Assembly (NCBI GenBank): GCA_949383255.1
Contig: CASJPF010000005.1
Span: 1 to 64,000 of the forward strand
DNA: 64,000 nt
DNA from: Lachnospiraceae bacterium
GTDB taxonomy: Bacteria; Bacillota; Clostridia; Lachnospirales; Lachnospiraceae
Direction of reading: 5' to 3'
The notes under the pieces were generated by a model. It saw only the letters and a program-made list of their open reading frames with translations, did not search any database and was not told the origin of the DNA. Below, piece after piece: positions 3,483 through 63,545 of the stretch; position 1 is the stretch's first letter; every line of letters begins with the position of its first letter. A program made the position numbers and the translations under genes.

Positions 3483-3562
3483 GTAACAGTTCAGCATTCA
3501 GCTTCCTGTTATATACATCAAGCCGTGCATAAACCGCTACGTGGTTGACTTGATGCAGCTCT
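3483..3562. repeat. truncated copy A of the GTAACAGTTCAG hairpin element
   Basis: It begins with the 12-base terminal repeat GTAACAGTTCAG (3483-3494), followed by an internal CCTGTTAT that can fold back on the end, then a hairpin bounded by CATCAAG and CTTGATG. The third hairpin and right terminal repeat seen in complete copies are absent, so this copy has lost its right end. It sits in the 511-base gap between cheA and the SGNH gene. Confidence 0.7.
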
Positions 3563-3747
3563 TTCACTTTTAAATAGAAATATATGGATTTCCAATATAT
3601 TGTAGTATTCAAAATTATAAAAGGTAATATTGTAATTTATTTAATAGAATAATAATACTTTTTTAAATAAATTGTAATTTTATGGCAATTTTTATTACAT
3701 AGTTTTATTTGTGTGAATAAATATGAAATATTTTTATAAGAATGGTA

Positions 3748-3776
3748 TTGTCTAAATCGCACTTTGCATTTATAAT
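3748..3776 (+). promoter_or_regulatory. promoter for the SGNH hydrolase gene
   Basis: TTGTCT (3748-3753), a 17-base spacer and a consensus TATAAT (3771-3776) on the plus strand, about 86 bases before the chosen ATG. The AT-rich sequence between 3560 and 3748 shows nothing else. Confidence 0.55.
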
Positions 3777-3861
3777 AATCTAAGACTTAAATTACGAAAT
3801 GTTGTTGAATATCAGGGCTGTTTACTACTCTTTAGTTTTTTATGAAAGGAGCTTTGAAGCC

Positions 3862-4746
3862 ATGAAAAAATATACCAACTCTGTAATCGCGCTTTTTATA
3901 TGTATGCTAATATTGACTCCATCAACAGTATATGCTGAGGAACTAGCCTCCATGCCAACATTCTCTGTTATCCAGCCCATAACTGGTGCAGCTCTGCCAA
4001 ATGAAAATCTCTCAGCAAGCCTTATTACACGTTTAAACACCTATCTTGCAGATAACTTGAACAATGGAAATATTGACATGCAGAAATTTAATGATATCCT
4101 GTCAAGCGGAATGGTTTCAGAAAATGCCTTTTTTGCAAATTCTGTTTTTGTAGGGGACTCACTTACAGTTGGCTTTTCAGAATATTGTAGAACGCATGAC
4201 TCCATCGCATCAGATACCACGTATTTTCTGGCAAGAGTTAGTTGTTCCGCCAAGGCTGCTATCTCCAGAAATGCACTTACTACACATGCCAATATTATGC
4301 CAAAATATAAAGGAAAAGTTCAGTTCATTGAAGATTCTGTAGCGCAGTTACCCAATGTATCCAAAATGTTTATCTGCTTTGGCATGAATGACTTAACAAG
4401 CAGTACTCCAGAACAGTTTGTATCAGATTTACAGACTCTTATAGGAAGAATTACTGCAAAAACTCCTGAACTACAAGTATATGTCATCTCAATTCCTTGT
4501 GTGATGTCTAACGTCAATAATGGCGGATTAAGCAACAAAACCATTCGGTCCACAAATCTCTTGCTACAAGATGCCTGTGTTCAAAATGGGTGGGGTTATA
4601 TTAATATTGCAGAACATTTGATGGGGTCTGACAATGCCATTCGCCCAGAATACAGTTCTGACCACTATGTACACGAGAATAGTCATGCTTACCAAATATG
4701 GAATAATGTCTTAAAAGACTATGCTTTCTGGGAAATTACAAAATAA
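3862..4746 (+). CDS. secreted SGNH/GDSL-type hydrolase
   Basis: A 294-residue exported hydrolase. The signal peptide is MKKYTNSVIALFICMLILTP followed by STVYA, with likely cleavage after Ala25. SGNH blocks are clear: FVGDSLTVG with nucleophile S100, FGMND with N176, and a C-terminal DHYVH carrying the Asp/His pair. These enzymes are esterases or lipases, often acting on cell-wall or polysaccharide acyl groups; the substrate cannot be told here. I start at the ATG at 3862, ten bases after AAAGGAG, because the longer reading places 21 extra residues before the signal peptide. It stands alone on the plus strand and converges on icd, with a perfect inverted repeat covering its last codons. Confidence 0.85.
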   Translation: MKKYTNSVIALFICMLILTPSTVYAEELASMPTFSVIQPITGAALPNENLSASLITRLNTYLADNLNNGNIDMQKFNDILSSGMVSENAFFANSVFVGDSLTVGFSEYCRTHDSIASDTTYFLARVSCSAKAAISRNALTTHANIMPKYKGKVQFIEDSVAQLPNVSKMFICFGMNDLTSSTPEQFVSDLQTLIGRITAKTPELQVYVISIPCVMSNVNNGGLSNKTIRSTNLLLQDACVQNGWGYINIAEHLMGSDNAIRPEYSSDHYVHENSHAYQIWNNVLKDYAFWEITK

Positions 4747-4765
4747 TTTCCCAGAAAGCATAGTC
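4717..4765 (-). terminator. perfect 22-bp inverted repeat between SGNH gene and icd, likely terminator of the icd operon
   Basis: Arms 4717-4738 and 4744-4765 are perfectly complementary over 22 bases with a 5-base loop. Read leftward, the stem is followed by TTTTAAG, so it fits a rho-independent terminator for icd. It also covers the last codons and stop of the SGNH gene and so could protect or end that transcript, although no U-run follows in the rightward direction. Confidence 0.75.
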
Positions 4766-4787
4766 CCGTCTCCTTGCAAACTCTTTT

Positions 4788-6692: not shown

Positions 6693-6697
6693 TTCTG

Positions 6698-8254: not shown

Positions 8255-8445
8255 GTTACAGTTCAACCTTATCCAGCTGCAACGCATCAAACCATACAAA
8301 ATCCTAGTACTCCATTCGACCAGAAATCAGAATCGTGAACCACCTATTCTCACTATTGCGTTGGGATTTTACCTAGCACTGGCACAAACCATGCGATTCA
8401 CAACTCTAATTTCTGTCTGGACGGAGCACTAGACTGAACTGTAGC
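8255..8445. repeat. copy G of the hairpin element (divergent, 191 bp)
   Basis: Ends are GTTACAGTTCAA (8255-8266) and CTGAACTGTAGC (8434-8445), one or two changes from the family ends. The middle can form a long nested stem and contains CATCAAACCATAC, close to the CATCAAGCCATGC of copies C and D. No clear flanking duplication is seen, so it is probably an old copy. The remainder of the 8123-8498 gap holds only the promoter and leader of the Re-citrate synthase operon. Confidence 0.6.
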
Positions 8446-13379: not shown

Positions 13380-13444
13380 TTTCCCCTCCTTAACATACAT
13401 GTAGGCTTCCGAAATCCCTGTGCCTGAAAAACATTGCTTTCTGT

Positions 13445-13453
13445 ATTATAGCA
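13445..13453 (-). promoter_or_regulatory. extended -10 promoter element at the edge of repeat copy B
   Basis: Minus strand TGCTATAAT (13453-13445) is a TGN-extended consensus -10. No good -35 lies 17 bases upstream. Its first bases lie inside the end of the mobile-looking repeat, so the insertion may have created or altered the promoter of the ABC operon. By eye only. Confidence 0.4.
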
Positions 13454-13583
13454 GTTCGGACAGGTCTGCGCATTTACTGCGCTGACCGTGCGAAAACATA
13501 AAGCTTGAGAGCAAAAATCCCATCGCCAAAGGCGATTTTTAATGGATTTTTGCAGTAACAGGTCAGCTTGTCTGAACTGTTAC
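13448..13583. repeat. copy B of the hairpin element (136 bp) with flanking 8-bp direct repeats
   Basis: Ends ATAGCAGTTCGGACA and (inverted) GTAACAGTTCAGACA. In reverse orientation its first 60 bases are almost identical to copy E at 49562. It contains three nested hairpins. The flanks TCTGTATT (13440-13447) and GCTGTATT (13584-13591) agree in 7 of 8 bases and look like a target-site duplication. It fills most of the 13380-13718 gap; a small inverted repeat CTGTATT/AATACAG follows at about 13585-13607. Confidence 0.8.
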
Positions 13584-13668
13584 GCTGTATTGTTTGAATT
13601 AATACAGTTCATACGCTTTTCACTTGAAATCATAGCACACATAATGCAAAATTTCAACCAATACATGA

Positions 13669-34338: not shown

Positions 34339-34624
34339 CGAGTGGATGAATGATCCAGAACTGCAAAAGATAGACCCGTCAAAACTTGATTTTCTTAATA
34401 AAATGTTTATGCAAAGCACCACGATTAACAATGGTGGCAATCAGGCAGAAACACAGAAAAAAATGATGGCATTTCTGTTATCACTAAATAAACTAAGCAA
34501 AGACAACAACATTTCCTTTCATCCAGAAGAGGTTGAGCTAATTTTCTCTGTCCTGAAAAAATACTCAACCCCTGATGATATTGCTAAAATGCAGAAGATT
34601 TCTTCCTTCTTCCGTTCCCGGTAA
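34325..34624 (+). CDS. uncharacterised small protein (99 aa), partner of the preceding gene
   Basis: Not a family I recognise. A small soluble helical protein (WMNDPELQKIDPSKLDFLNKMF ... KLSKDNNISFHPEEVELIFSVLKKY ... KISSFFRSR). The ATG at 34325 has GGAGG eight bases upstream, inside the end of the preceding gene, an arrangement typical of translational coupling. Earlier starts (TTG at 34310, ATG at 34319) are too close to or before that site. Its last 41 bases overlap, tail to tail, the end of the leftward surface-protein gene at 34584. No signal peptide or membrane segment. Confidence 0.7.
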   Translation: METNNEWMNDPELQKIDPSKLDFLNKMFMQSTTINNGGNQAETQKKMMAFLLSLNKLSKDNNISFHPEEVELIFSVLKKYSTPDDIAKMQKISSFFRSR

Positions 34625-42427: not shown

Positions 42428-42582
42428 GTAATAATTCAGCATTTGACTTCCTGTTACAAACATCAAGCCATGCACCATCGCTTCACAACGTCAAAGCCAC
42501 GTTCGGTGGCTTGATGCATCTCAACTGCTATGCGGTTTCACGGACTTTGCAATCAATGCAAAGTCCTATACTAAACTATAAC
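42428..42582. repeat. copy C of the hairpin element (155 bp)
   Basis: Ends GTAATAATTCAG and CTAAACTATAAC are degenerate forms of the terminal repeat. Inside are the CATCAAGCC/GGCTTGATG hairpin and the perfect stem GGACTTTGCA/TGCAAAGTCC. The flanks ACTTTTCT and ATTTTTAC agree in only 5 of 8 bases. It lies in the gap between marR and the ABC-F gene. Confidence 0.75.
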
Positions 42583-45141: not shown

Positions 45142-45175
45142 CTATGAAAACAACCATCGTAAAAATAATTTAACA

Positions 45176-45312
45176 GTAACAGTTCAGCCTTCGGCTTCCT
45201 GTTACGTGCATCAAGCCATGCAAAACCACTTCGCGGTGGCTTGATGCTTCTCAACCGCAACACTGTTTTACGGACTTTGCAGTAAATGCAAAGTCCTAGA
45301 CTGAACTGTAAC
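45176..45312. repeat. copy D of the hairpin element (137 bp) with flanking 8-bp direct repeats
   Basis: Ends GTAACAGTTCAG (45176-45187) and CTGAACTGTAAC (45301-45312). Inside: end-pairing CCTGTTAC, the hairpin CATCAAGCC/GGCTTGATG, and the stem GGACTTTGCA/TGCAAAGTCC. Flanks ATTTAACA (45168-45175) and GTTTAACA (45313-45320) match in 7 of 8 bases, as expected for a target-site duplication. It lies in the 318-base gap between greA and the formate channel gene. Confidence 0.85.
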
Positions 45313-45328
45313 GTTTAACACATTAAAA

Positions 45329-48806: not shown

Positions 48807-49538
48807 CTATTCTAGTTTTTTATTTGTTCTGGTCAGCTCTATCAGTTTTATCTCATTTCTAAGAGAATCTTTAAACACATTTACAAAATTTTTTTGACCA
48901 CAATATAGACAACTATCTGTAATATCTCCTGTCATCTCTCCAGTCAAAACATAACTAGAATCCACAATTAGCCTTAGCTGTCTATCTTTTTTATTTGACA
49001 AATAGACAATACAACCTTTTATCTGGACTTCAGATATGGCACTCACAAGAAGCACTACTTTTTTCCCCTCCGCTGCAAGCTGTTCTAATTGTGTTCTAAA
49101 CTGTTGAAGATATTCTTCTGGCATAGATAAATACACGCGATATTCAACATGTTGTAGCATATTATAGATTTTATCCATAATATGTCTGTGACTGCTAATG
49201 GTAATATACCCCTCTGAATTATCCCTAATTTGTGGTATCTGTGTGGTGAGTTCCTGCTTTAATCTTGTTAGCTGTCGAATCCTATTTTCACAAAAATCCT
49301 CTATAAAAACCGCGGTGTACTTGTTCGTTTCTCCTTCGAGCAAATATGCCGCGCCCTCCTCAACCAAACTGGCAAGCGCACTGTACACATTAGAGCGCGA
49401 TATTCCTGTGAGCTTAGACACTTCATAACCTGACAAATCTTTATTTTGCAGCAGACATAGATAAATCGTTGCCTCCTGCCTAGTCAGACCAAACTGCACT
49501 AACTTTTCTGTCAAAACACCCAACACAATATTATCCAT
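48807..49538 (-). CDS. TrmB-like transcriptional regulator
   Basis: A 243-residue protein with an N-terminal TrmB-type winged helix (LTEKLVQFGLTRQEATIYLCLLQNKDLSGYEVSKLTGISRSNVYSALASLVEEGAAYLLEGE), a connecting helix, and a C-terminal domain resembling the PLD-like/TrmB effector part. A CLYCGQ motif near residue 218 hints at metal or redox sensing, though only one CxxC is present. I start at the ATG at 49538 (GGTGATGAG upstream); the 13 codons further up run into repeat copy E. It leads an operon with lysA, so control of lysine synthesis is possible but unproven. Confidence 0.82.
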   Translation of the reverse strand: MDNIVLGVLTEKLVQFGLTRQEATIYLCLLQNKDLSGYEVSKLTGISRSNVYSALASLVEEGAAYLLEGETNKYTAVFIEDFCENRIRQLTRLKQELTTQIPQIRDNSEGYITISSHRHIMDKIYNMLQHVEYRVYLSMPEEYLQQFRTQLEQLAAEGKKVVLLVSAISEVQIKGCIVYLSNKKDRQLRLIVDSSYVLTGEMTGDITDSCLYCGQKNFVNVFKDSLRNEIKLIELTRTNKKLE

Positions 49539-49561
49539 GCATCTCATCACCCACTTCCGCA

Positions 49562-49697
49562 GTAACAGTTCAGACAAGCTGACCTGTTACTGCAAAAATC
49601 CATTAAAAATCGCCTTTGGCGATGAATTTTTGCTTGCAGCCACCACGCTTTCCTACGGTATTTGCAGCACAGTGCAAATACCTGTCTGAACTGTTAC
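49562..49697. repeat. copy E of the hairpin element (136 bp) with flanking 8-bp direct repeats
   Basis: Perfect 15-bp terminal inverted repeats GTAACAGTTCAGACA. Inside: end-pairing CCTGTTAC, the hairpin TTAAAAATCGCC/GGCGATGAATTTTTG, and GGTATTTGCA paired with TGCAAATACC. Flanks CTTCCGCA (49554-49561) and CTTCCACA (49698-49705) match in 7 of 8 bases. It lies in the leader of the TrmB-lysA operon, between promoter and start codon. Copy B shares about 60 nearly identical bases in the reverse orientation. Confidence 0.88.
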
Positions 49698-49755
49698 CTT
49701 CCACACAACTATTTTTTCGTATCAGCTTTACCAAATAGTAGTTCTCAACAGGAAC

Positions 49756-49784: not shown

Positions 49785-49821
49785 GAAGCATAACAAAAAT
49801 TGTGTTCTGGTTTTAATTATG

Positions 49822-51915: not shown

Positions 51916-51929
51916 AACCTCATCTCCAA

Positions 51930-52289
51930 TCACTCAATATGTTCATCAATCATTCTCTTAATCCTCTCCGCTTCCTGTTCAGATATTGTTTTTCCTCCAA
52001 GAAATGCCGTTAGAAATTCTGGAAGCGAACCGTCAAATGTACGTTCCACAAAATAGGCACTCTCCTTAGCTTGTACTTTTTCCTTAGGAATCAGCACTCG
52101 AACTGTAGCCTGTACATTTTCAATATACCCTTTATCACACATTTTTTTTATCTGTGTGTATGTGGTAGACTTCTTCCAACCAAGCTTTTGATTACACAAC
52201 TGCACTAACTCTCCAGAATTAATTGGCGCAAATTCCCAAACTACCAGCATAAAACGATAATCACTGTCACATAATTTGAAATTTTCCAT
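51930..52289 (-). CDS. BlaI/MecI/CopY-family repressor
   Basis: A 119-residue winged-helix repressor: MLVVWEFAPINSGELVQLCNQKLGWKKSTTYTQIKKMCDKGYIE with the family's KKSTTYT recognition helix, and a C-terminal dimerisation helix (EQEAERIKRMIDEHIE). The site normally cut by BlaR1 (Asn-Phe in BlaI) falls in the C-terminal half; here FVERTFDGS lies in that region. Paired with the M56 sensor directly downstream. Its own promoter carries two 16-bp palindromic operators (52326-52369), as expected for autoregulation. Confidence 0.92.
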   Translation of the reverse strand: MENFKLCDSDYRFMLVVWEFAPINSGELVQLCNQKLGWKKSTTYTQIKKMCDKGYIENVQATVRVLIPKEKVQAKESAYFVERTFDGSLPEFLTAFLGGKTISEQEAERIKRMIDEHIE

Positions 52290-52322
52290 TGTATTAATCC
52301 CCCCATATCTTTATAATATTTT

Positions 52323-52381
52323 TAGGTCTATAAGTATAGACTTGTTGAGTAAAGTCTATACTTATAGACCTAATTTGTCAA
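52323..52381 (-). promoter_or_regulatory. BlaI-type promoter with double palindromic operator
   Basis: Minus strand -35 TTGACA (52381-52376), 17-base spacer, -10 TAGACT (52358-52353). Two copies of the near-palindrome GTCTATAAGTATAGAC lie at 52326-52341 and, reverse-complemented, at 52354-52369; extended to 19 bases the two form a perfect inverted repeat with 12 bases between. The upstream copy fills the -35/-10 spacer, so repressor binding would exclude polymerase. Confidence 0.8.
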
Positions 52382-52388
52382 TCTTTTT

Positions 52389-53018
52389 CTACCATTTTGT
52401 TTCAAATTCCCTACACTTGTCTATTTTATTTCTTAAATTCATTCTAAGCTCTTCAACATCTCCATAGTATACGCAGCCATCCATTCCCAAATTTCTAGCT
52501 GCCTCAACATTTGCTGGCATATCATCAATAAAAAAGCACTCCTCAGGATTCAAGGAAAACGTTCGGAAGAAATCAAGATATGCCGCTGGTTCTGGCTTAA
52601 GCAGTCCATGCTCACAGGAAATCCAGATTCCTTTCATATACGCAATTGACCGAATATACTGACTAAATATCCGAAAACGATGTGAAGTATTGGACATTAA
52701 ATATAGGTCAAATCCATTTTGTGCGAGCTCTTCCACCAGTTTCTCCATAGGCGGATTAGGCGGCTGTATCATACGATACTCTCTAATAAAACGCTCTACA
52801 ATACTATGTAAATGTTCTGGGATTCTCTTGCAAATAGAGGCAATCGCCGCCTCATCTGTAATTGTCCCCCTATCCATTTGAAGCCACTCCACCGATGCAC
52901 AGAGGTGATTCTTTATCCATCGAAAATCCTCTTCATTCTCCACATATCCCAAAATATATTCTCTAGCATTGTATACTGTCAATACATTTCCCATATCAAA
53001 CACAATATTCTTAATCAT
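52389..53018 (-). CDS. HAD-family (subfamily IA) phosphatase, YihX-like
   Basis: A 209-residue haloacid-dehalogenase-type hydrolase. Motif I is IVFDMGNVLTVYN (nucleophile Asp; the second Asp is replaced by Gly-Asn as in GNVL-type members), motif II LYLMSNTS, motif III Lys in GLLKPEPAAY and motif IV FFIDDMPANVEAARNLGM. Such proteins dephosphorylate small metabolites such as sugar phosphates; substrate unknown. The ATG at 53018 follows GGAGG and GAAGG; the longer reading to 53054 enters a structured repeat. It is the last gene in line after the Opp, ApbE-like and lepB genes, but a GC-rich structured gap of 158 bases separates it from lepB. Confidence 0.88.
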   Translation of the reverse strand: MIKNIVFDMGNVLTVYNAREYILGYVENEEDFRWIKNHLCASVEWLQMDRGTITDEAAIASICKRIPEHLHSIVERFIREYRMIQPPNPPMEKLVEELAQNGFDLYLMSNTSHRFRIFSQYIRSIAYMKGIWISCEHGLLKPEPAAYLDFFRTFSLNPEECFFIDDMPANVEAARNLGMDGCVYYGDVEELRMNLRNKIDKCREFETKW

Positions 53019-53038
53019 TGATTTACCTTCTTTCCTCC

Positions 53039-53139
53039 GCGCAGGTCCGTGCAATCGAGTAGGGAAGGTTATTTCCCCTACTCGCCGCGCGACCTGCGCG
53101 CCACTTTAGTGGCATATTTCCTTTGCGCAGGTCTGTGCA
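53039..53139. repeat. GC-rich structured intergenic element
   Basis: GCGCAGGTCCGTGCA (53039-53053) recurs as GCGCAGGTCTGTGCA (53125-53139), and GACCTGCGC (53091-53099) is the inverse of its first nine bases. Between them is a 9-bp hairpin CGAGTAGGG/CCCTACTCG (53056-53084), and a small CCACT/AGTGG stem follows at 53101-53112. Locally GC-rich against an AT-rich genome. Different from the GTAACAGTTCAG family. Confidence 0.6.
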
Positions 53140-53176
53140 TAAAAGCAAAAATCGACCGCAAAAGCAGCCGATTCCC

Positions 53177-53689
53177 TTATTTTAACACTTTTATTTCTGG
53201 ATAATATTCAAATGTGGCTTTGCCAACAATTTCCTCTAAATTCACAAATTTATTCTCCCAAAATCTTGAATCCCAAGAATTATTGCGGTTGTCTCCCATC
53301 ATAAAATAACAGCCTTCTGGTATTCTGTAAGGTCCAAAATCCTCATAAAATCTGTTTCCTGTATAATCTGATATTTCTTTGCCATCAATGTATATCTTAC
53401 TGTCAATTCCCTCAATTACTTCTCCCGGCAAACCAATAATCCGTTTTAGATACAACGTCTCTCCGTCATCAGGATAGTAAAAGGACACAATATCTCCTCT
53501 TTGCGGGCTGTCATATAAATATGCCAGGCGATTAATCACAATCCTGCTCCCTGTCATAACAGCTCCTTCCATTGAGCCTGTTGGCACCAACGCGCTTGCA
53601 ACAACATTATTTTTTAGCCAAAAAGCAACCGCCAGCGCGAACAAAAGCATCTTTGACCATTCATAAATTCCCCTTACAATCTTCTTCAT
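53177..53689 (-). CDS. lepB: type I signal peptidase
   Basis: A 170-residue signal peptidase I of the short Gram-positive type: one N-terminal membrane helix (about 13-33), nucleophile S39 in VPTGSME, general base K82 in LYLKRIIGLPGE, box B RGDIVSFYYP and box E GDNRNNSWDSRFW. It removes signal peptides from exported proteins. It begins 22 bases after the ApbE-like gene and is probably co-transcribed with it and the Opp operon. Given the many exported proteins in this window it may be one of several copies. Confidence 0.95.
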   Translation of the reverse strand: MKKIVRGIYEWSKMLLFALAVAFWLKNNVVASALVPTGSMEGAVMTGSRIVINRLAYLYDSPQRGDIVSFYYPDDGETLYLKRIIGLPGEVIEGIDSKIYIDGKEISDYTGNRFYEDFGPYRIPEGCYFMMGDNRNNSWDSRFWENKFVNLEEIVGKATFEYYPEIKVLK

Positions 53690-53711
53690 AGTATGCCTTT
53701 CTATTATAATG

Positions 53712-54983
53712 TTATTCCTCTCTATGCTTTGCGCTATATCGCACTTTATCTTTATTGTATAGGTCTGTCAGTCGTAAATCAGCATCATTGTAAAAAATTG
53801 TTCTGTTCTCACAATAAATAGAATAAAATTTACTTTGCGCTAGCGTATTTAGTTGCTTTGTATCAAAATAGTTGGCAATAAAAACAGGCATCACCCGCAA
53901 TAAAACCTCTGTACAACTACTGTCTCTTGCATAACAGACAAGGCTGTCAACAGAATTTTTGCTATATCCGTCTGATGGGTCAATATATGCTGTCTGAACT
54001 GTTCCATCACGAAATTCATAATAATACTGCCAGTCAAGACGATTCACTGGATAGCTGCGCAAAGACACAATACTAATCGCATTGTTATATTTCATTACCC
54101 CAGCCGGATAGATTGCGTTATCTTCCTTGTCCAAAATATTGAAAGCATACTCTGTATCACCAACAGTATCCAAATTTCGTATAAATCCATCATAGCTAGA
54201 GATGGAACCCTGCACAAAACCATTTGCCACCATAACATCTGCAATATAGTCAACAATAAATGCGTTTTTCATCCAGTAAAAATCAATAAAATCCAAAAAT
54301 CCATTTTCTGACGCATAATTCAAATACGCCTCCGAAACAGACAACATTATTTTATTTCCTTCCAAAAGCTTTAGTTCAATCGCATCTGAATCGTTCGTAT
54401 AAGAAAGAATCTCTGAAAAATAGGTGGCTATCTCTTGATTTTGCCGTGGGTCAAAATTCACCGTCTCCAAGTCATCATTACACCCAAACAGATTGTCATA
54501 CTGAATATACACTGGCGCCAAATATATCGCTCTATTTTTATACTGATTCATTAGAGAAAAAGCCTTGTAAAGTACCAAATCAACCTCAATCTCCTCATTA
54601 GGATGCTGATTGATATAGTACAAGTTATGCACCCCATCAAAGGATATTCTTGTATGAAAAAGCTGATACGCCTTTATCACAGCCTCTGTATACAACGCAG
54701 TAATCGCTTTCTGTTCTGCCGTGGCAGACAGTTCTCCTGCTCCGAGATTGTACCGAAATATCAATTCATCTGCACAGCTTGCTTCCGACGTAGAAGCTTC
54801 AATTGTTGTCCAGCCAGCATCTACCGTAAGATACGCTACCAGCGAATATCCAAACGCACCAATGCCAATTCCTATCAATAAAATTACGATAATCAGCCTG
54901 CTTTTGGGATACTTTTCTAACAATGAAATCCGTTTTACAGGTTTTGGATACCTATCAGATCTATCCCTAACTGTACGATTCAA
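53712..54983 (-). CDS. membrane-anchored protein with divergent ApbE-like (flavin transferase) fold
   Basis: A 423-residue protein with a basic N-terminus, one membrane helix (about 29-50) and a large outside domain. It is unlike any protein I know closely, but its order of segments parallels ApbE (FAD:protein FMN transferase): an early helical part, YLAPVYIQYDNLFG with FDPRQNQEI near where ApbE has its FDPTVGPL segment, then KNAFIVDYIADVMVANGFVQGSISSYDG in place of the KGYAADRV...GG region, and YYYEFRDGTVQTAYIDPSDGYSKNSVDSLVCYA in place of HHIIDPKTGYP...SVTV. Key catalytic positions look changed (AYIDP for HIIDP, SYDG for GGNI), so it may bind flavin without transferring it. It begins one base after the oppF stop, so it is coupled to the peptide transporter. 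Confidence 0.6.
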   Translation of the reverse strand: MNRTVRDRSDRYPKPVKRISLLEKYPKSRLIIVILLIGIGIGAFGYSLVAYLTVDAGWTTIEASTSEASCADELIFRYNLGAGELSATAEQKAITALYTEAVIKAYQLFHTRISFDGVHNLYYINQHPNEEIEVDLVLYKAFSLMNQYKNRAIYLAPVYIQYDNLFGCNDDLETVNFDPRQNQEIATYFSEILSYTNDSDAIELKLLEGNKIMLSVSEAYLNYASENGFLDFIDFYWMKNAFIVDYIADVMVANGFVQGSISSYDGFIRNLDTVGDTEYAFNILDKEDNAIYPAGVMKYNNAISIVSLRSYPVNRLDWQYYYEFRDGTVQTAYIDPSDGYSKNSVDSLVCYARDSSCTEVLLRVMPVFIANYFDTKQLNTLAQSKFYSIYCENRTIFYNDADLRLTDLYNKDKVRYSAKHREE

Positions 54984-54984
54984 G

Positions 54985-56307
54985 TTATACCACCACTAAA
55001 ATCAATAACAAAATAAACAGTACAATAATCGCTGCTATCACAATCAAACCAGCTATCGCGCCCTTCTTACATGTCGTATAATTACGGTAATAATGAAAAT
55101 GCTTAAACACAAAAGCCGCTATCAATCCAAACACGGGAAGCAAAAAGGAAAGAATCTTATACCACACGCTTCCTGTATCGTGCACAGGCGCTTTCAAAAA
55201 TTCATCTTCCTGAGCAGATATTGTATTCGCCTTTGTTTCCTGTAAATTTTGCTGCTTTTGCGGCGCACTTGGATCGACGATATTAATGGATTTTAAAGGT
55301 ACTCCCTTTGCGCGAATTGCCTTATATTCCTCAATTTCTTTCTTATTGCCATAGACAAAGTGATCATGTCCAATATTGACAAGTTCTGGCTGATCTGTAC
55401 TGTAATCATGCATTGACGGATCATACGTATAGAGCACTTTGTTTTTCTCTAATTTCGGATCTGGAATTGGAATCGCAGAAATTAAAGAGTGCGTATACGG
55501 ATGCAATGGAAATTCAAACAATTCATCCGCCTCTGCTATCTCCACAATGTTTCCCTTATAGATTACCCCAATTCGGTCAGAAATAAACCGCACAATAGAG
55601 AGATCATGTGCAATAAACAAATAGGTAACATTTTTTTCTATCTGGAATTTTTTGAGCAGGTTTAACACCTGCGCTCGGATTGAGACATCCAATGCCGAGA
55701 TTGGTTCGTCTGCCACAACAAGTTCTGGCTCCATAACCATAGCGCGGGCAAGTCCAATTCGCTGGCGCTGCCCACCCGAAAACTCATGTGGATAACGGGT
55801 CAAATGCTCTGGCAGCAGTCCTACCTCATTGATCATATTCTCGACTTTGCGAACACGATCTGCCTCATTTTCATATAAATGAAAATTATACAATCCTTCT
55901 GATACAATATAATCCACCGTGGCACGCTCATTGAGCGATGCCGCTGGGTCCTGAAAAACCATCTGGATATTACGGATAACCTCTCTGTCCAAAGAGCGCG
56001 GAATTTTCCCAGAAATGCGCACACCCTTATATAAAATTTCTCCTCCAGCACACGGATTGACACGAATCACAGCTCTCCCTACAGTTGTCTTTCCAGAGCC
56101 TGACTCTCCTACCAATGAGAAGGTCTCTCCTTTATAAATATCAAAGTTCGCATTTTTTACAGCTTTGACCGCGTTTTCCCCTTTGCCAAAAGTAATATCT
56201 ACATTTTTTACTGATAATAATATCTCTTTGCCGTTTTTTTCATCAATTGGACCATGCTCCGGCAAATGAAATACACGTCCTGATTTATTCTGATTCAGAT
56301 TTGACAC
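54985..56307 (-). CDS. oppF: oligopeptide ABC transporter ATPase (OppF-like) with C-terminal membrane tail
   Basis: A 440-residue ATPase: Walker [10 protein letters not shown] (67-75), Q-loop [12 protein letters not shown], signature [14 protein letters not shown], Walker [13 protein letters not shown], switch His in FIAHD, and the oligopeptide-type C-terminal region ([16 protein letters not shown]). Beyond about residue 330, where family members end, there is a polar linker and then two hydrophobic segments (about 384-403 and 416-440). That tail is unusual: OppF proteins are peripheral and have no membrane helices of their own. Start is supported by the standard N-terminus; the gene follows oppD by 95 bases and abuts the ApbE-like gene. 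Confidence 0.9.
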
Positions 56308-56402
56308 GTTCTAAGTCTCCTATCTAAAGATCTGCAAAGGAATGACCTAAGACTCTTACCTGCAAAATTGTCATATTATTTCTTTACAGTTCCTAAAAGT
56401 CG

Positions 56403-58151
56403 CTATATATTAAAAGCTTTTAAAAGTTTCTCATGAATATTCTGAATTGCTTCTGGTTTCTCAACCCGAGGTGAACGAGGGTCCAGCAGCCAAGTTTTTG
56501 CAAAGTGTGTGTCACTAACCTGAAACATTGGCGGCTCCTTCAGCGTATCAATCTTCATACAGTATGGATTACGCGGCGCAAATGCATCTCCCACCACTTT
56601 ATTATAGAGAGATGGCGGTGTGCCTGTGATGGAATACAACTTTGTATTCTTCTCTGCAAGTTGTGGCATAGAGGATAACAACGCCCATGTATATGGATGC
56701 CTTGGATCATAAAAAATCTCATCTACAGAGGCAAGCTCTATTATCTGACCTGCATACACAACCGCAACACGGTCCGCTATATTCGCCACAACACCAAGAT
56801 CATGCGTAATAAATACAATCGTATAATTAAACTCTTTCTGCAAATCTTTTAGAAGCTTTAAAATCTGCGCCTGAATTGTCACATCAAGCGCTGTTGTCGG
56901 CTCGTCACAAATCAATATCTTCGGCTGGCAAGAAAGTGCAATTGCAATAACAATTCGCTGTCTCATACCACCGGAATATTGAAACGGATAGTCATCAAAA
57001 CGTGCCTCCGCATTGGGGATTCCTACCTTTTTCATAAGGTCCAATGCCTTTGCCCGCGCCTCGACCTCTGTCACTTCCTGATGCTTCATAATAATTGATG
57101 TAATCTGTTTTCCAATTGTTATAATTGGATTTAAAGAAGTCATTGGGTCCTGAAAGACCGTTGCAATCTTCTTTCCGCGAATCTGATACCAGTCTTTTGC
57201 ATACTTTACATTTGCCAAATTTAACACACAAATTCCATGAAGCTGATTTGCTGTCTCATCAAGATATTTCACGCGGAACGCCACTTTGTCAAAAACTGCA
57301 TTTCTGTGCACATCATCCGACAAGTCCGCTCCTATTTTCATTGCTGACTGAAATGCTGCCAAAAACTTAAATAACATCTGTACACGCTTATGAAAACTAT
57401 ATCTTCCAATTGAGAGATACACTTCCTTTGCAAGAATTTCATTGCGTTCCCTTGTCTCCTTGGAAATCGTTCCCTTGATTGCCGCATCATACTTTGCTTT
57501 TAATGCAGCCATATCCGAATTGTATTGATTGATATAGGCTGTGTCACTCTTAAGCTGTTTCTCTGCGGCTTTTTCCATTGCAACTCTATCTTTTAGAAGT
57601 TTTTTAATCTCCTTCTCCATCTGCTTTATAGATTGCGTAAGTTCTCTTATCTTCGCCCTTTCTGTCTTAGGGTCCAATGTCTGTTTCAAATTAAAGACTT
57701 CTGTCTTTTTTGTGCCAAGTTCAGCAATCGCTTTGTCGCTCTTTTCTTTCTGTTCCAAACTGATATTTGCCCTTTTAGCACGCTCGGTCTTCAAAGCCTC
57801 TATCTCTTTATAAATTTCTGCTCCTAGTTCAAGCTGCGAATATGCATTCAACTTTGCAAATGTATAATCAATCATCTTCTTTGAAACAGAAGTCTTGCGA
57901 ACAACTGTATCCGCTAAATCTTCATCATTAAAAATAATACTTCCATTGTCAATATATCCGTTACTGTCAAGCATTCCCGCAAATGTTTTTGTAAATACAG
58001 ATTTACCAGAACCAGACTCCCCAACAATCGCTATTGACTCATTTTCATAAATATCAAGTGAAACACCGCGAATCGCAGTCAGTCGCTTTCCGCGCACGCG
58101 AAATTTCACTTCCAAATCCTTGATTGATAATAAAACTTTTTTATCTTCCAT
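56403..58151 (-). CDS. oppD: oligopeptide ABC transporter ATPase (OppD-like) with large helical insertion
   Basis: A 582-residue ATPase, against about 330-350 for OppD. Walker A GESGSGKS is at 44-51, but Q334 of the Q-loop (TVFQDPMTSLNP) comes 280 residues later: a segment of about 240 residues (roughly 82-322) is inserted. It is highly charged and helical, with a clear coiled coil (about 110-205, Lys/Glu-rich) and a second helical part. The rest is normal: signature YSGGMRQRI (392-400), Walker B ILICDEPTTALD, switch His in FITHD, and the C-terminal HPYTWALLSSMPQ with the peptide-importer tail. The frame is intact and all motifs are present, so this is not a fusion artefact visible as a frameshift. 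Confidence 0.92.
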   Translation of the reverse strand: MEDKKVLLSIKDLEVKFRVRGKRLTAIRGVSLDIYENESIAIVGESGSGKSVFTKTFAGMLDSNGYIDNGSIIFNDEDLADTVVRKTSVSKKMIDYTFAKLNAYSQLELGAEIYKEIEALKTERAKRANISLEQKEKSDKAIAELGTKKTEVFNLKQTLDPKTERAKIRELTQSIKQMEKEIKKLLKDRVAMEKAAEKQLKSDTAYINQYNSDMAALKAKYDAAIKGTISKETRERNEILAKEVYLSIGRYSFHKRVQMLFKFLAAFQSAMKIGADLSDDVHRNAVFDKVAFRVKYLDETANQLHGICVLNLANVKYAKDWYQIRGKKIATVFQDPMTSLNPIITIGKQITSIIMKHQEVTEVEARAKALDLMKKVGIPNAEARFDDYPFQYSGGMRQRIVIAIALSCQPKILICDEPTTALDVTIQAQILKLLKDLQKEFNYTIVFITHDLGVVANIADRVAVVYAGQIIELASVDEIFYDPRHPYTWALLSSMPQLAEKNTKLYSITGTPPSLYNKVVGDAFAPRNPYCMKIDTLKEPPMFQVSDTHFAKTWLLDPRSPRVEKPEAIQNIHEKLLKAFNI

Positions 58152-58221
58152 GCTACCTTCCTCTTACTCGGAATCGTACAACCATTGTTGTGATACCACC
58201 CGCAACATTATTCTGCACTTT

Positions 58222-59241
58222 CTACATATGGGTTCTAGGGTCAGACGCATCACCAAGATTCTGTCCTACCACATACAAAACAATTGTGATAATCGAAGCA
58301 ACCGCAACCGGACTCCAGAACTCAAACCCCCATCCAGGTGTCAACATTGCACTCTCAGCCTCATAGATTAATCTACCAAGGGACATTTCCTTAAGTCCCA
58401 TGCCAATGTAGGCAAGAAACACCTCATAAGAAATATAAGAAGGTATCTCTGTCGCTGCAAGTGTCACAACAACAGAAGTCATAAACGGCAAAATATTTTT
58501 CATTGCAATCCGAATTGTGGAAGTCCCTAGACACCTCGATGCCAAATTATACTCCCTATCACGGATAATAATAACTTGTGTACGTATAAAATATGCGATT
58601 GACAACCATCCAGTCACGGTCATTGCAAAGACCATTGTCCAAAAGCCTGCAGTAAATATCATAACCATTACTGAAATCACTAAAATATAAGGCAGATTTG
58701 CAATAATGTTATAGACAATCATCATAACATTATCCACCTTCTTAGAAAATCCCCAGATAGCACCAATCACAACACCAACCGACATATTAATCAACGCAAC
58801 AATAAGCGCCAGCGAAATGGAAATCTGAGATCCATACCAAATCGCATCAAAGGTAGACTGACCAGCCGCGCCAGCTCCCAAAACCCAGTGAATATTGTAA
58901 CCAAACTGTTTAAATGCAGCTGTAGGCGTCAAATGTTTTGCGGAGGCATTCAACAAATTTCCATAGCGATCATACTCTACAAATACTGGGTACAAATATG
59001 CCATCAATACAATCACTGCAAGCAATCCCAACATTACAATATTAATCTTTTTTCGGAAAAACACGCGAAAAACAGAATGCCAGTACGAATACCGCGGCGC
59101 TGTAATTTTTTCTGATTCAAGGTCACTGTGATTTACCACAGTAAACAGCTCCGCATCTGACATTCCTTCTGTTGGGTCTGTTTCCTTCAAATCTGTAACT
59201 TCTACGTTGACATACTTACCCATTTTAAAATCTACATTCAT
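58222..59241 (-). CDS. oppC: oligopeptide ABC transporter permease (OppC-like)
   Basis: A 339-residue permease with a long soluble N-terminus (about 1-70, acidic), a first membrane helix (IVMLGLLAVIVLMAYLYPVFV), an extracytoplasmic loop, then five helices and the EAA-type cytoplasmic loop ATEIPSYISYEVFLAYIGMGLKEMSLGRLIYEAE that docks with an ATPase. This is the OppC/DppC pattern. Start ATG follows AAGGGATAGA; a second ATG five codons on is also possible. It lies 109 bases after oppB and 70 before oppD. Confidence 0.93.
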   Translation of the reverse strand: MNVDFKMGKYVNVEVTDLKETDPTEGMSDAELFTVVNHSDLESEKITAPRYSYWHSVFRVFFRKKINIVMLGLLAVIVLMAYLYPVFVEYDRYGNLLNASAKHLTPTAAFKQFGYNIHWVLGAGAAGQSTFDAIWYGSQISISLALIVALINMSVGVVIGAIWGFSKKVDNVMMIVYNIIANLPYILVISVMVMIFTAGFWTMVFAMTVTGWLSIAYFIRTQVIIIRDREYNLASRCLGTSTIRIAMKNILPFMTSVVVTLAATEIPSYISYEVFLAYIGMGLKEMSLGRLIYEAESAMLTPGWGFEFWSPVAVASIITIVLYVVGQNLGDASDPRTHM

Positions 59242-59350
59242 TCTATCCCTTGCCTTTCTCTAAATACTGCTCACTCTCACGTCTTTCATAATAATTTAGA
59301 CAAGTTAATCTATTATTACTTCTCTTTGGTGAGAATAGAAACAATAAGCG

Positions 59351-60922
59351 TTATCGATCCTTGCTCGAGAAGGAAATTCTAGGATCTACCATTGACATCA
59401 ACACATCACCTAAAATAATCGCCACAACACTCAGCACTGCATAAAATAAGGAAACACCGACAATAACACCATTGTCATATTTGTTGATCGCCTCTGTCAG
59501 CAAGTTACCTGCACCTGGAACGACGTATACGCGCTCTGTAATAATCGCACCTGTCAGACACCCTAAAACGCTTCCCGGTATTCCATGAATTACTGGAATT
59601 GACGCATTCTTCAAAATATGTTTTGTAAAAATTTCATTCTCTGAAAGTCCTCCGGCTCTGGCAAATTTTACATAGTCGGAATTCATCTGGTCAATCATAT
59701 AGCGACGCAACCATTTCATTAGATTCGCAACTTGTGGCAAAGCAAGAGAAATAATTGGCAACACATACACAAGTTTGTTGGCTGTATCCATATCAAAAGT
59801 AGTTGGGAATCCCAGCTTGCCACCCATTGCCTTGAACAAGAAAATATAAGCCAATGAAGGAACTGCTATAATAAATACAATATATAATGTACCAATTCTG
59901 TCAATCAGCTTGTCCTTCTTTCTTGCCATTGCAATTCCAAGCGGCACGCCAAGCACATATGCTAAAACTGTTGCGATAATACCAATCAGGAAGGAGTATC
60001 CCATCTTGGACAAACCACCTTTTACCGTGCCCACGATAGTATAGTCATCTGTGTATCGCGTCTCATATACAAGGCTAGAATGCAGAGAATCCGCCAGATA
60101 TGTAGCTGAATGCAAATCATCTGCACTCTCCTCCACCAACCCTGTTGGATAAGTAATCGTTGAGGTGATAAACGACCCTTGTGTTTTTGTCATTGTTGTA
60201 AACACGTCAACTCCCGTATTGACAGAATATGAAGTTCCTAATTGAATACTCATAATATTCTGATGGATAAATGGAAATTTGGAATCACAGTACAGCAGAT
60301 ACTTATGTACAGTACCATTTCCAATAATCGCTGGTGAAAAAGTTTCCCCGCCATAGACAGGATCATATAAAGTAAAGGAAATCCCACGATCTCCCACATC
60401 ATTTTCAATTTTATTAATATTGTCAATACTCAATATTCCACTAAAATAATTCCATACACGAGATATTAATGGAATATTTTTATAAGCAAAAAGTTGCTGT
60501 TGCCCACCGCTGGCAATTTTCTTTTTTCCCATTAATACAGCGTTCAATCGCTCAACTGTATAACCTTGGGATTTATAATATTGTGTAAATTTTTCTACAT
60601 ATTCTTTTACAAGATCAGAATCTTTTTCAGGAGTTCTTCCAAATCCAACCGCGGCGGATCGGGTCTCCTCATCAATTTCTCCACTCGAAGTTAGGATATT
60701 CAAATAATCAGAGTAGGTTACATAATCCAGATAACCATAATCTTCCCATTTCTGATATTTATAAGTTACCTTTTGGTTATTCTGCTGCTTGGTATACACT
60801 GGATCTGATGCAAAAATCAGATTGCGGTCCAGCAGGGAATAGATCATAATCATAATCAATATCACGACTGCTATCACAGATAACAATCCATGAAATAAAC
60901 GTTTCAATAAATACTTAGCCAT
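59351..60922 (-). CDS. oppB: oligopeptide ABC transporter permease (OppB-like) with large extracytoplasmic domain
   Basis: A 523-residue permease, against about 310 for OppB. The N-terminal membrane helix (LLKRLFHGLLSVIAVVILIMIMIYSLL) is standard, but a polar domain of about 240 residues follows before the second helix (about 290), facing outside. The C-terminal half is canonical OppB, with five helices, the motif LPIISLALPQVANLMKWLRRYMIDQMNSDYVKFARAGGLSENEIF and the closing MVDPRISFS. The ATG at 60922 follows GGGAGATGGAT; the longer reading to 60979 has no such site. The extra domain probably contacts the likewise enlarged substrate-binding protein. Confidence 0.92.
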   Translation of the reverse strand: MAKYLLKRLFHGLLSVIAVVILIMIMIYSLLDRNLIFASDPVYTKQQNNQKVTYKYQKWEDYGYLDYVTYSDYLNILTSSGEIDEETRSAAVGFGRTPEKDSDLVKEYVEKFTQYYKSQGYTVERLNAVLMGKKKIASGGQQQLFAYKNIPLISRVWNYFSGILSIDNINKIENDVGDRGISFTLYDPVYGGETFSPAIIGNGTVHKYLLYCDSKFPFIHQNIMSIQLGTSYSVNTGVDVFTTMTKTQGSFITSTITYPTGLVEESADDLHSATYLADSLHSSLVYETRYTDDYTIVGTVKGGLSKMGYSFLIGIIATVLAYVLGVPLGIAMARKKDKLIDRIGTLYIVFIIAVPSLAYIFLFKAMGGKLGFPTTFDMDTANKLVYVLPIISLALPQVANLMKWLRRYMIDQMNSDYVKFARAGGLSENEIFTKHILKNASIPVIHGIPGSVLGCLTGAIITERVYVVPGAGNLLTEAINKYDNGVIVGVSLFYAVLSVVAIILGDVLMSMVDPRISFSSKDR

Positions 60923-60992
60923 ATCCATCTCCCATTCTTGCTTCATCTGCGAGTTTGGGCGCAAGCGCAAACTATCCACTTTTTATCTGCTA

Positions 60993-61018
60993 CCAGAAAC
61001 GGCAAAAGCCGTTTCTGG
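60993..61018. promoter_or_regulatory. perfect hairpin between oppA and oppB
   Basis: An 11-bp perfect stem CCAGAAACGGC/GCCGTTTCTGG with a 4-base loop, 14 bases below the oppA stop. No T-run follows leftward, so it is more likely a 3' stabiliser or partial terminator raising oppA transcript over the permease genes. Confidence 0.6.
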
Positions 61019-61031
61019 ACAACAGAGTGTA

Positions 61032-63296
61032 TTAGAAAATACCAAGACTCTTTGTTACATAGCCTGAGTAATCAGGTAAAAATGTATCAAGGTAAGTAAC
61101 AGGATCACCATAATCCGGTCCCCAGCCAGATACATCTGTAATATTATAATTTGCCTCGTATCCATAATCTGTATAGTATCCTGTGTAATACCATTCATTG
61201 CTGTCTGCTCCATCAGCAAGAATAATTTCCACCTTGCCTCCAAAAGCGCCCTCAACAGACTGTTTTACAGCATTTGCCTGGTTTGTTGCCCACTCGATAC
61301 TAGATGTGTATGGAAGCTCCAAACGAACAGGATGTTCCTCATCAATCACAACGCCCTGTGCTGCCAACTCCTCAATTGCTTTATTTAAAAATGTAACAGC
61401 ATTTTCTGGACTGTACCATCCATCATAACCATCACTGCTTCCTATGCCATCACTTGCTGTTTTATCAAATGCCTTGATAGGGATTCCATCCGCATCAATC
61501 TGTGCCTGAACAATCTCACCATAAACTGTACCTGCTGGAAAGTTTGTCGGTGTGCCATTGATGTCGATGGTCACTTCATTCTCAAGTGTCACAAAGTTAC
61601 CTGGTATATAGGTGTTTCTAAGTCTACCGTATTTGAGAGCCTCGCCTACACGCTGTGCCTGTCTTGCTGCCTTATCCATAGAGAAGGACAACGCCAGACG
61701 GAAATTGGCATTGCCAAGAGCTGCGTTTGCCAAATCTTTTTCCTCATCTGTAAGGATAGAGACCACCTTTGTCTCATCATTGCTGTTTGCATATGCTGTA
61801 CGGAACAAGTTATAATACATCGGGAATGTTGAACCGTTTGTATCGCTGATAAATACATACTCATCAAACAATCCATCTGCCTTTGCAGATTCCACCTCAG
61901 ATGTATTTAAACCAGTGTGATCCAAAGTGCCATTCTTTACATCATTGTACATCTTCGTCGCATCAGACTGATCCTCATACGGCCATGACATAGACTTAAT
62001 TGTCATATTATCCTTATTCCAGTAAGACTCATTTTGCTTAAACGCAATTACATTCTTAGAAGTAAAGTTTGTAATCAAAAACGGACCATTGTATGCAATA
62101 TTGTCCGGAGACTTTCCATAGGTATAATCTGCTGCTGAACTGTCAAATTCATCACCAAATTTACCACCCTGCGATGTGTAGTAATCTCTGCTGATCGGCG
62201 CAAATACATTATATCCAAGCATTGTTGGGAAATATGGCAGTGCTTCCTCCAATGTGTATTCCAATGTATAATCATCAACTGCCTTAACACCAACCTGTGA
62301 AAAGTCTGTAATCTCACCAGAAATATATCCAGAGGCATTCAGGACAACGCCGTCAACCAAATCGCCTAGCCCACCGTTTGTATCAATCATATGTTGAAAG
62401 CCTGCAACCCAGTCATCTGCCTTGACATCTGCAACTTTTCTGCCCTGTGAGTCAACCCAGTCAACTCCCTCGCGAATGTGGAATGTATAAGTCAATCCAT
62501 CATCTGACACATCATAGCTTGTCGCCAAAGCAGGCTGCTGAACATTCTCACAATCATACTCTAGCAAACCATCATATGTATTTACTGTCGCATAACTGTC
62601 AACAGTCTGACTTGTGGAGAGAATATCCCAAGTTGTTGGGTCAGAACCAAACCAGTGCGCTGCATAGGAATCTTTCAGCTCATATCCTTTTTCTGCAAGA
62701 TATGTTTTTGCCCATTCAGTATAAGTTCCTGAGCCGCGCAACTCTGCCCATTTCTGCCGCATCTCTGTTCTGTCCGCCACTTTTATTGGCTCTGTTGTCA
62801 CAAGCACATTGTGGTATCTATATTCATCATTGCCCCACAACACTGTTGTCTCTGTGTTTGGAACTCTTCTTGATATGGAGTAAGTACCACCCTGCGCAGT
62901 CTGCGGATTTAAGACACCCGTTTCCAAAAGCTTTGCTTCTGCAACCGCCATCATTGCATACCGCTTAGAAAGGTCATTGATCTCAGCTTTTGCCTCCTGA
63001 TAAATCTCATAGAACTCGCCAAGATTCTGTTCGTACAGATAAGAGGACCGCTCATCATAATCCATCTCCGCAAGTTCCGCCATACTCTTTGCAGAACCCC
63101 CTTCTCCTTCCTCTGTTGTAGTCTCCTCTGCATTTGCCGTCTCTGTGCCCGCCTGTTCGGTTTCTTTATTATTTTCTGCTACAGGAGTATCTGTAGCTGG
63201 TTTATCAGAACCACCGTTAGAACCACAGCCTGCCAAAGAACCGGCAACCATCGTTCCTGCTAGTAAAACAGCAAGAACTCGTTTTCTGTTTCTCAT
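61032..63296 (-). CDS. oppA: oligopeptide-binding lipoprotein (OppA-like, SBP family 5)
   Basis: A 754-residue lipoprotein: signal peptide MRNRKRVLAVLLAGTMVAGS with lipobox LAGC (lipid on C24), a Gly/Glu/Thr-rich linker (about 25-70), a helical region (about 70-125), and the extracellular solute-binding domain with LEYDCENVQQPALATSYDVSDDGLTYTFHIREGVDWVDSQG. It is longer than typical OppA (540-600). It captures peptides for the OppBCDF machine. The ATG is preceded by AAGGAGGT with a slightly long spacer. Its consensus promoter lies at 63618-63646, giving a leader of about 310 bases that contains an inverted repeat and repeat copy F. Confidence 0.93.
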   Translation of the reverse strand: MRNRKRVLAVLLAGTMVAGSLAGCGSNGGSDKPATDTPVAENNKETEQAGTETANAEETTTEEGEGGSAKSMAELAEMDYDERSSYLYEQNLGEFYEIYQEAKAEINDLSKRYAMMAVAEAKLLETGVLNPQTAQGGTYSISRRVPNTETTVLWGNDEYRYHNVLVTTEPIKVADRTEMRQKWAELRGSGTYTEWAKTYLAEKGYELKDSYAAHWFGSDPTTWDILSTSQTVDSYATVNTYDGLLEYDCENVQQPALATSYDVSDDGLTYTFHIREGVDWVDSQGRKVADVKADDWVAGFQHMIDTNGGLGDLVDGVVLNASGYISGEITDFSQVGVKAVDDYTLEYTLEEALPYFPTMLGYNVFAPISRDYYTSQGGKFGDEFDSSAADYTYGKSPDNIAYNGPFLITNFTSKNVIAFKQNESYWNKDNMTIKSMSWPYEDQSDATKMYNDVKNGTLDHTGLNTSEVESAKADGLFDEYVFISDTNGSTFPMYYNLFRTAYANSNDETKVVSILTDEEKDLANAALGNANFRLALSFSMDKAARQAQRVGEALKYGRLRNTYIPGNFVTLENEVTIDINGTPTNFPAGTVYGEIVQAQIDADGIPIKAFDKTASDGIGSSDGYDGWYSPENAVTFLNKAIEELAAQGVVIDEEHPVRLELPYTSSIEWATNQANAVKQSVEGAFGGKVEIILADGADSNEWYYTGYYTDYGYEANYNITDVSGWGPDYGDPVTYLDTFLPDYSGYVTKSLGIF

Positions 63297-63432
63297 AATA
63301 CTTTTTTACCTCCTTAAAAATTGAACTATGTTTTAACCTAACAATAAGGTAAAAACCAAGCAAAATCTGTCAAATGACACAAAAAAGTAAAAAAAGTGCC
63401 TATGAACGCCATTGTCCACTGCACTTAACTCT

Positions 63433-63545
63433 ATAACAGTTCCGATGCCTTCACTTGTGTACAGGACCTCCAAAAACCCTGCCTGCAGCCACTGCTCTCG
63501 TATATGGTCAGCACAATCAATGTGCTGACCTGACTAAACTGTTGC
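63433..63545. repeat. copy F of the hairpin element (113 bp, degenerate)
   Basis: Ends ATAACAGTTCCGA and CTAAACTGTTGC are degenerate terminal repeats; inside is the perfect stem GGTCAGCACA/TGTGCTGACC, equivalent to hairpin 3 of the other copies. No clear flanking duplication. It lies inside the oppA leader. Confidence 0.65.

Follow-up and report, generated by a model that had tools for sequence, protein, structure and literature searches.

What are the short palindromic sequences that recur at seven intergenic sites in a 64,000-nucleotide stretch of a Lachnospiraceae genome (GenBank assembly GCA_949383255.1, contig CASJPF010000005.1, positions 1 to 64,000), and which enzyme put them there? 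An earlier note on this stretch, called the window below, had read them as a family of miniature inverted-repeat transposable elements (MITEs), and had taken 8-bp direct repeats at their edges as the footprint of transposition. We found that these hairpin repeats are recently mobile MITEs, and comparison of their ends with those of insertion sequences (ISs) makes it very probable that the transposase moving them belongs to the IS66 family. The elements start with the 12-bp sequence GTAACAGTTCAG and follow one plan: the end together with hairpin 1, which contains an internal copy of the end, then hairpin 2, a spacer, hairpin 3, and the right end. Other genomes and loci are designated here by G and L numbers.

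Mobility of the elements and length of the target duplication

Mobility became visible in a comparison of the window with a close relative, G141, which is 99.6% identical to it over positions 53-49816 and 99.2% identical over 49806-64000. The sole large insertion of G141 in the aligned stretch is a 137-bp copy of the element with TCTGGTTT on both sides, while the window, at 49806-49813, has a single TCTGGTTT and no element. The inserted copy has a 98.5% identical counterpart elsewhere on the same contig, bordered by a perfect repeat of its own, AGTTCGAT. A filled site with duplicated TCTGGTTT in one genome and an empty one in the other indicates recent transposition. The comparison with empty sites that the earlier note had called for thus yielded a true empty and filled pair between near-identical genomes, complete with the 8-bp duplication.

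The length of the duplication was constant. In fetched loci, most of which were chosen for containing ends, so that proportions are not genome-wide, 91 pairs of ends were spaced 60-260 bp apart; at width 8 their flanks matched perfectly in 43 cases and in 7 of 8 positions in 18 more (61/91), against 2 perfect matches at width 7 and 1 at width 9. A larger set of loci, mostly fetched in the same way, gave flank matches of at least 6/8 for 150 of 322 end pairs (overlapping ones included), 85 of which were perfect. As an unselected sample we used 866 kb of G141, about a fifth of that genome. Flanks matching in at least 6/8 positions were found there for 26 of 78 end pairs when up to 4 mismatches were allowed and for 17 of 24 when up to 2 were allowed; displaced flanks gave no pair at this level. 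Target sites were AT-rich (72% A+T in the 85 perfect duplications), and mechanically called open reading frames (ORFs) of at least 100 amino acids were touched by 7 of the 26 G141 elements as compared to 90% of random points. Insertion targets are therefore mostly between genes. In several more distant relatives the elements of 42428, 45176, and 49562 were absent, with divergence obscuring the 8 bases.

The many copies with exact 8-bp repeats bear out the footprint described in the earlier note. The elements of 136-137 bp have no transposase gene of their own, they carry terminal inverted repeats and a constant 8-bp duplication, and one of them was inserted at a site that is empty in the window. 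It is nearly certain that they are mobile and duplicate 8 bp of target. Their strong hairpins, both at the ends and inside, are also what one would see in hairpins of the repetitive extragenic palindrome or IS200-IS605 type, which are moved in single-stranded form by a Y1 transposase. Y1 transposition makes no target duplication. Because an 8-bp duplication is present here, this explanation is refuted, and we give it next to no chance.

The same 8-bp footprint was observed with other end types (GTAACT.. and GTTACTGTTCAC) and with a body of 187 bp. The latter belongs to a second short element (L019:1501-1687), which has the same ends and an 8-bp duplication around a different body and of which there were 18 matches in the window's own genome (G000) and 18 in G009, partial ones counted. 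At L149:6454-6707, a GTAACT-type and a GTAACA-type element are fused end to end within a single, outer, perfect duplication (AAATTATT), as if both had moved jointly.

IS66 genes bordered by the same ends

The 8-bp duplications and the GTAA ends suggested the IS66 family, for which this combination is the rule, and we then tested that rule. When 100 genomes of the family, each from a different genus and the window's own among them, were searched, 40 gave an IS66 match. In two genomes, G419 and G450, IS66 genes (PF03050, 2.1e-19 and 2.7e-20; 75% identical to each other) have their stop about 45 bp inside an exact GTAACAGTTCAG. G419 has two such copies at different sites, as their flanks differ, and G450 has one. 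G450 also carries a short element (L052) with which its IS end agrees in 22 of the first 23 bases, which means that the IS end contains part of hairpin 1. Between the G419 IS end and the end of the 187-bp short element, 20 of 22 bases are identical. G149, which belongs to the window's genus, has a 441-bp element with an exact end on either side of a tnpC remnant that is 83% identical to the G450 gene product over 118 amino acids; this is an internally deleted IS66 derivative. The IS66 sequences of these three genomes emerged among distant matches, only 23-34% identical to the L269 transposase described below.

Descent of the short elements by internal deletion of an IS would agree with the 20-22 bases common to both at one IS end and with the existence of the 441-bp deleted IS66. 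No source for the body comprising hairpins 2 and 3 was found in any IS examined. At L320:1408-1740, a tnpC remnant (64% identical, amino acids 429-481) directly adjoins a sequence resembling hairpin 3, together with a decayed end, and this junction is either an IS66 deletion derivative or due to chance.

IS66 genes were also found inside the other end types. L269 encodes a single-ORF transposase (487 amino acids with a masked run), assigned to IS66 by both Pfam and NCBIfam and lying between GTATCTGTTCAGAACCCCC and GTAACTGTTCAGAACCCCC. Fragments 70-92% identical to it were situated just inside GTAWCT[AG]TTCAG ends in four genomes of the genus, G023 (five fragments), G020, G147, and G006, and relatives with 44-64% identity just inside such ends in G369, G354, G092, and G072 of the family, the end being ATAACTG in G072. 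Eight further genomes of the genus gave distant IS66 matches (23-43%) to the L269 query. G003, G002, and G022 of the genus contain complete IS66-type elements, about 2.3 kb long, that have GTTACTGTTCAC or GTTACTTTTCAC ends and perfect 8-bp duplications, and this end type also occurs at one end of an IS66-type element in G157 of the family. The IS66 ends of G003, G002, and G022 have their match in short elements of G141, which have GTTACTGTTCAC ends and perfect duplications.

Outside the family, an ISGst1-type element has the ends GTAACTATTCAG and GTAACTATTCAC and the 8-bp repeat AAAAGAAC. We examined 10 further plasmid IS66 copies out of 53 records. Perfect 8-bp repeats were present in 9 of the 10, including the same Geobacillus element at another site, and one plasmid copy, from Chlorohelix, ended on one side with exactly GTAACAGTTCAG. 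PMC12898284 (section 2.2) reports that ISDge4, of the ISBst12 group, transposed with an 8-bp repeat. The short elements thus have ends as in IS66 elements, and an 8-bp duplication is found in both. A single transposase ORF was seen for L269 and for the ISGst1 type, while in the GTAACAG-ended genes of G419 and G450, which are cut, the 5' part lies outside the available sequence. Relatives of the transposase in viral contigs were searched for, and none was confirmed by tblastn.

Evidence against an IS66 partner

Several results weigh against the participation of IS66. No PF03050 match was present in the window's own draft assembly, so that no partner was found in the same genome, and the L269 transposase did not detect any IS66 gene in G010, G139, G141, or G144, all rich in GTAACARTTCAG. 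Both G419 copies run into contig ends, and the G450 copy is truncated at its 5' side. The flanks of the 441-bp G149 element match in only 3/8 positions, the complete L269 element lacks a flanking repeat (2/8), and only one end of L294 was found. Only two of the four genomes with a GTAACT-type IS are rich in that end: G023 and G020 have 103 and 49 GTAACT-type ends and 4 GTAACA-type ends each, whereas G147 and G006 have 6 and 3 GTAACT-type ends versus 21 and 29 of the GTAACA type. Furthermore, no IS match was obtained in the GTAACT-rich genomes G008, G143, G014, and G144. The assemblies are drafts, and a multi-copy IS may therefore be missing from them.

Could a DDE transposase of another family, with similar ends and an 8-bp stagger, have moved these MITEs? 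The lack of an IS66 gene in the own assembly and in the GTAACA-rich genomes G010, G139, G141, and G144, although transposition is recent, would be understandable in that case. The IS66 genes and remnant that G419, G450, and G149 have within exact GTAACAGTTCAG ends, and the 20-22 end bases that they have in common with short elements, point the other way. In addition, the loci searched contained no IS-sized pair of ends with matching flanks and another transposase. We therefore consider an enzyme of another family very unlikely.

A few candidates for an autonomous element were examined and rejected. IS-sized end pairs with matching flanks in the fetched loci were only copies interrupted by scaffold gaps and pairs judged to be due to chance, and inspection by eye of the list of ends in G010 revealed no such pair. 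The 866-kb sample of G141 contained one 2.8-kb pair, of which the right end belongs to a 133-bp element and which has no recognisable transposase inside. Partial BLAST matches of the copy at 45176 were traced to gaps, to truncations, or to hairpins nested in a copy. GTAAR-ended IS66 elements of the family were likewise not retained as partners.

The earlier note had also proposed to look for an IS that shares the terminal repeat and duplicates 8 bp. The IS66 family includes ISs with these ends and this duplication length, and no IS was found that was complete, with exact GTAACAG on both sides and a duplication. Because such an IS was found neither elsewhere nor in the own assembly, it is the family of the enzyme that is well supported, and we infer that an IS66 DDE enzyme acts on the elements in trans. 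The identical ends, the longer end sequence in common, the same duplication length, and the G149 derivative within the genus all argue that this enzyme is very probably of the IS66 family, a conclusion drawn from sequence comparison.

Hairpin structure of the body

Structures were compared in the orientation that places hairpin 1 first. Hairpin 2 has an outer stem, followed in most copies by a CATnnAAA-like bulge, and then an inner stem-loop; the spacer before hairpin 3 ends in YACG in most copies. We started from 91 elements of 115-180 bp with flank matches of at least 6/8 and dropped 2 without hairpin 1 and 1 duplicate. Because hairpin 1 thus played a part in the selection, the structural evidence rests mainly on helices 2 and 3. 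Stem 2 was present in 23 of 26 non-redundant elements, compared with 1 of 78 shuffled bodies, and stem 3 in 18 of 26, compared with 0 of 78. In an alignment of 29 rows picked by eye for diversity, 11 of 16 predicted pairs had changed on both sides and were still paired. The covariation score was 0.492, versus 0.138 after shuffling and no more than 0.124 after sliding; four of five covariation measures were above all 500 shuffles, and the remaining one, further pair types, was not (83 of the 500 reached it). The internal palindromic arm, CTGTTAC, follows the end sequence: elements with GTAACT ends have AGTTAC there. Position 6 of the end covaries with the arm base opposite to it (A-T in 23 rows, T-A in 5, unpaired in 1; n=29). 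In L198, L208, and L213, stem 3 has an extra small hairpin (GTGGCTTGTATAAGCCAT-like) inserted.

Three hairpins with such compensatory changes and covariation are also what structured RNA genes, or regulatory hairpins such as a terminator or a riboregulator, spread by ordinary descent, would display. The exact 8-bp duplications and the polymorphic insertion do not fit this explanation; spread by descent is contradicted by the site that is empty in the window and filled in G141. No Rfam family reached the gathering score in the window. About 98% of stem pairs in 88 elements were Watson-Crick, a percentage that is favourable by construction because the finder seeks Watson-Crick stems. Stem mismatches, both kinds being counted alike in these 88 elements, were G-T in 7 cases and A-C in 14, and the top strand had the lower folding energy in 43 of 88 (p 0.21), so that neither strand folds better. 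This absence of a G-T excess and of a strand difference speaks for palindromes kept at the level of DNA rather than for an RNA made from one strand. A count made on the helix 2 alignment contained some G-U cells, with 26% of the cells unpaired through poor alignment, and did not settle this point. Overall, RNA genes or regulatory hairpins spread by descent are a highly improbable explanation for the family, and an RNA role of inserted copies is possible.

We also found, in the fetched loci, 21 micro-copies of less than 70 bp with flank matches of at least 7/8, of which 16 measure 28-32 bp and are essentially hairpin 1. As they carry 8-bp flanking repeats, a minimal transposable unit may even consist of hairpin 1 alone (28-32 bp, formed by its own end with the internal arm). 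An equally good explanation at present is that a full copy underwent deletion between its two GTAACAG repeats. It is possible, though rather unlikely, that the three-hairpin body with its end-covarying internal arm is needed for mobilisation by IS66 or improves it.

The seven sites in the window

The earlier note had described the same ends and plan at seven sites. Both were recovered there, with the reservation that 3483 is a left half, that 8255 is a hybrid, and that 42428 and 63433 are decayed (Table 1). Allowing at most 4 mismatches for the left and right ends together, both ends are kept at five of the seven (8255, 13448, 45176, 49562, and 63433). The window contains 20 matches to GTAACAGTTCAG with at most 2 mismatches, compared with a mean of 4.7 and a maximum of 14 in shuffled sequence. 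Among its 10 end pairs (24-330 bp, nested and overlapping ones included), 3 have a 7/8 flank match; they are the three copies for which edge-exact repeats had been reported (13448-13583, 45176-45312, and 49562-49697). Sub-families had been noticed as well, and what these share is body structure more than body sequence.

Table 1. Element copies, flanking repeats, and empty target site in the window (hairpin positions counted from the sequence)
Feature	Positions	Strand	Remarks
Truncated copy	3483..3562	+	left end GTAACAGTTCAG exact, hairpins 1 and 2; sequence shown lacks hairpin 3 and right end
Hybrid copy	8255..8445	+	ends GTTACAGTTCAA and CTGAACTGTAGC; second, unrelated inverted repeat CTAGTACTCCATT...GGAGCACTAG inside; flanks match 3/8
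Flanking repeat TCTGTATT	13440..13447	.	left of copy 13448-13583
Complete copy, 136 bp	13448..13583	-	sub-family of 49562-49697, in opposite orientation to it
Flanking repeat GCTGTATT, 7/8	13584..13591	.	right of copy 13448-13583
Decayed copy	42428..42582	+	right side below end threshold; flanking repeat not convincing
Flanking repeat ATTTAACA	45168..45175	.	left of copy 45176-45312
Complete copy, 137 bp	45176..45312	+	ends and plan in sequence; hairpin 1 45176-45205, hairpin 2 45208-45247, hairpin 3 45272-45296, right end 45301-45312
Flanking repeat GTTTAACA, 7/8	45313..45320	.	right of copy 45176-45312
Flanking repeat CTTCCGCA	49554..49561	.	left of copy 49562-49697
Complete copy, 136 bp	49562..49697	+	ends and plan in sequence; hairpin 1 49562-49590, hairpin 2 49592-49633, hairpin 3 49657-49682, right end 49686-49697
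Flanking repeat CTTCCACA, 7/8	49698..49705	.	right of copy 49562-49697
Empty target site TCTGGTTT	49806..49813	.	137-bp element with perfect 8-bp duplication here in relative G141
Decayed copy, 113 bp	63433..63545	+	flanks match 3/8

The left edge of copy 49562-49697 overlaps the mechanical TTG start of ORF 48807-49577. A second inverted repeat, of the CTAGTACTCCATCC...GGATGGAGTACTAG kind, is found inside the copy at 8255-8445 and also inside that at L126:511-809, where the nested repeat is bordered left and right by CTAG, which would fit an insertion with a 4-bp duplication. Elsewhere in the window, ORF 34584-36728 contains tandem 33-bp repeats (36277-36536), and its protein has Listeria-Bacteroides repeat and BspA-type leucine-rich repeat domains.

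Copies and ends in other genomes

The window's own genome has 77 exact GTAACAGTTCAG ends, compared with 1 for the reversed control. Copy 45176-45312 had matches in 20 of 40 genomes, namely its own and 19 of 23 relatives of the same genus; the 16 genomes that represent other families within the order gave none. Counted jointly, GTAACARTTCAG-type and GTAACTRTTCAG-type ends numbered at least 10 in 28 of 38 genomes of the genus. A search for the end plus the internal arm in a collection with one genome per species gave at least 113 stretches. Among the 80 listed, almost all were from Lachnospiraceae or other Clostridia, and one was from Pedobacter. Element copies were also seen in two contigs of a viral collection (L323:2671-2808 and L324:168-304), with 8-bp flanks matching in 8/8 and 7/8 positions. 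The element may be riding on phages, or these may be bacterial contigs mis-sorted into the viral collection.

Proposed mechanism and comparison with known systems

We propose that a transposase encoded elsewhere would recognise the 12-bp ends GTAACAGTTCAG and CTGAACTGTTAC and insert the element into AT-rich, mostly intergenic DNA, making an 8-bp target duplication. The putative enzyme, an IS66-family DDE transposase, would act in trans. The stems of hairpins 2 and 3, which stay Watson-Crick palindromes despite sequence change, might be maintained by template-switch correction or because a DNA hairpin is needed.

The elements are ordinary in kind, being MITEs; the family itself is without description in the literature searched. 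The titles and abstracts covered contained no description of it or of any IS66-dependent MITE; related publications include PMC8024623, PMC3189936, PMC3281130, and PMC9769881. What we describe is a MITE family of gut Lachnospiraceae that is large and still active, together with its likely transposase family and an empty and filled pair of sites. It has several end types, each of which can be compared with an IS66 element having the same ends. Its strand-neutral, changing Watson-Crick stems make it a good case for studying how bacterial palindromes are maintained. In practical terms, copies of the element, inside which scaffold gaps and contig ends fall, may account for some of these interruptions in the draft assemblies.

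Among known elements, the ISBst12 group of the IS66 family (ISGst1, ISBst12, and ISDge4) resembles these repeats in having ends of the GTAAC[TA][AG]TTCAG kind and an 8-bp duplication. The members of that group are autonomous, measure about 1.5-1.8 kb, and carry a single transposase gene, whereas the repeats described here are of about 113-190 bp and have no gene. Lachnospiraceae IS66 elements with GTAAR ends likewise combine GTAA ends with 8-bp duplications (6-8/8; ends found at 11 of 40 loci), but they are of about 2.5-2.9 kb and their ends read GTAAR.., as opposed to GTAAC.. in the present repeats. Bacterial MITEs such as MITECca01 and MITEPsy1, which the literature ties to IS982 and perhaps to IS5, respectively, are similarly short and geneless, with terminal inverted repeats and many copies. 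In contrast to these, the family described here has a conserved three-hairpin body, with stem sequences that differ between sub-families.

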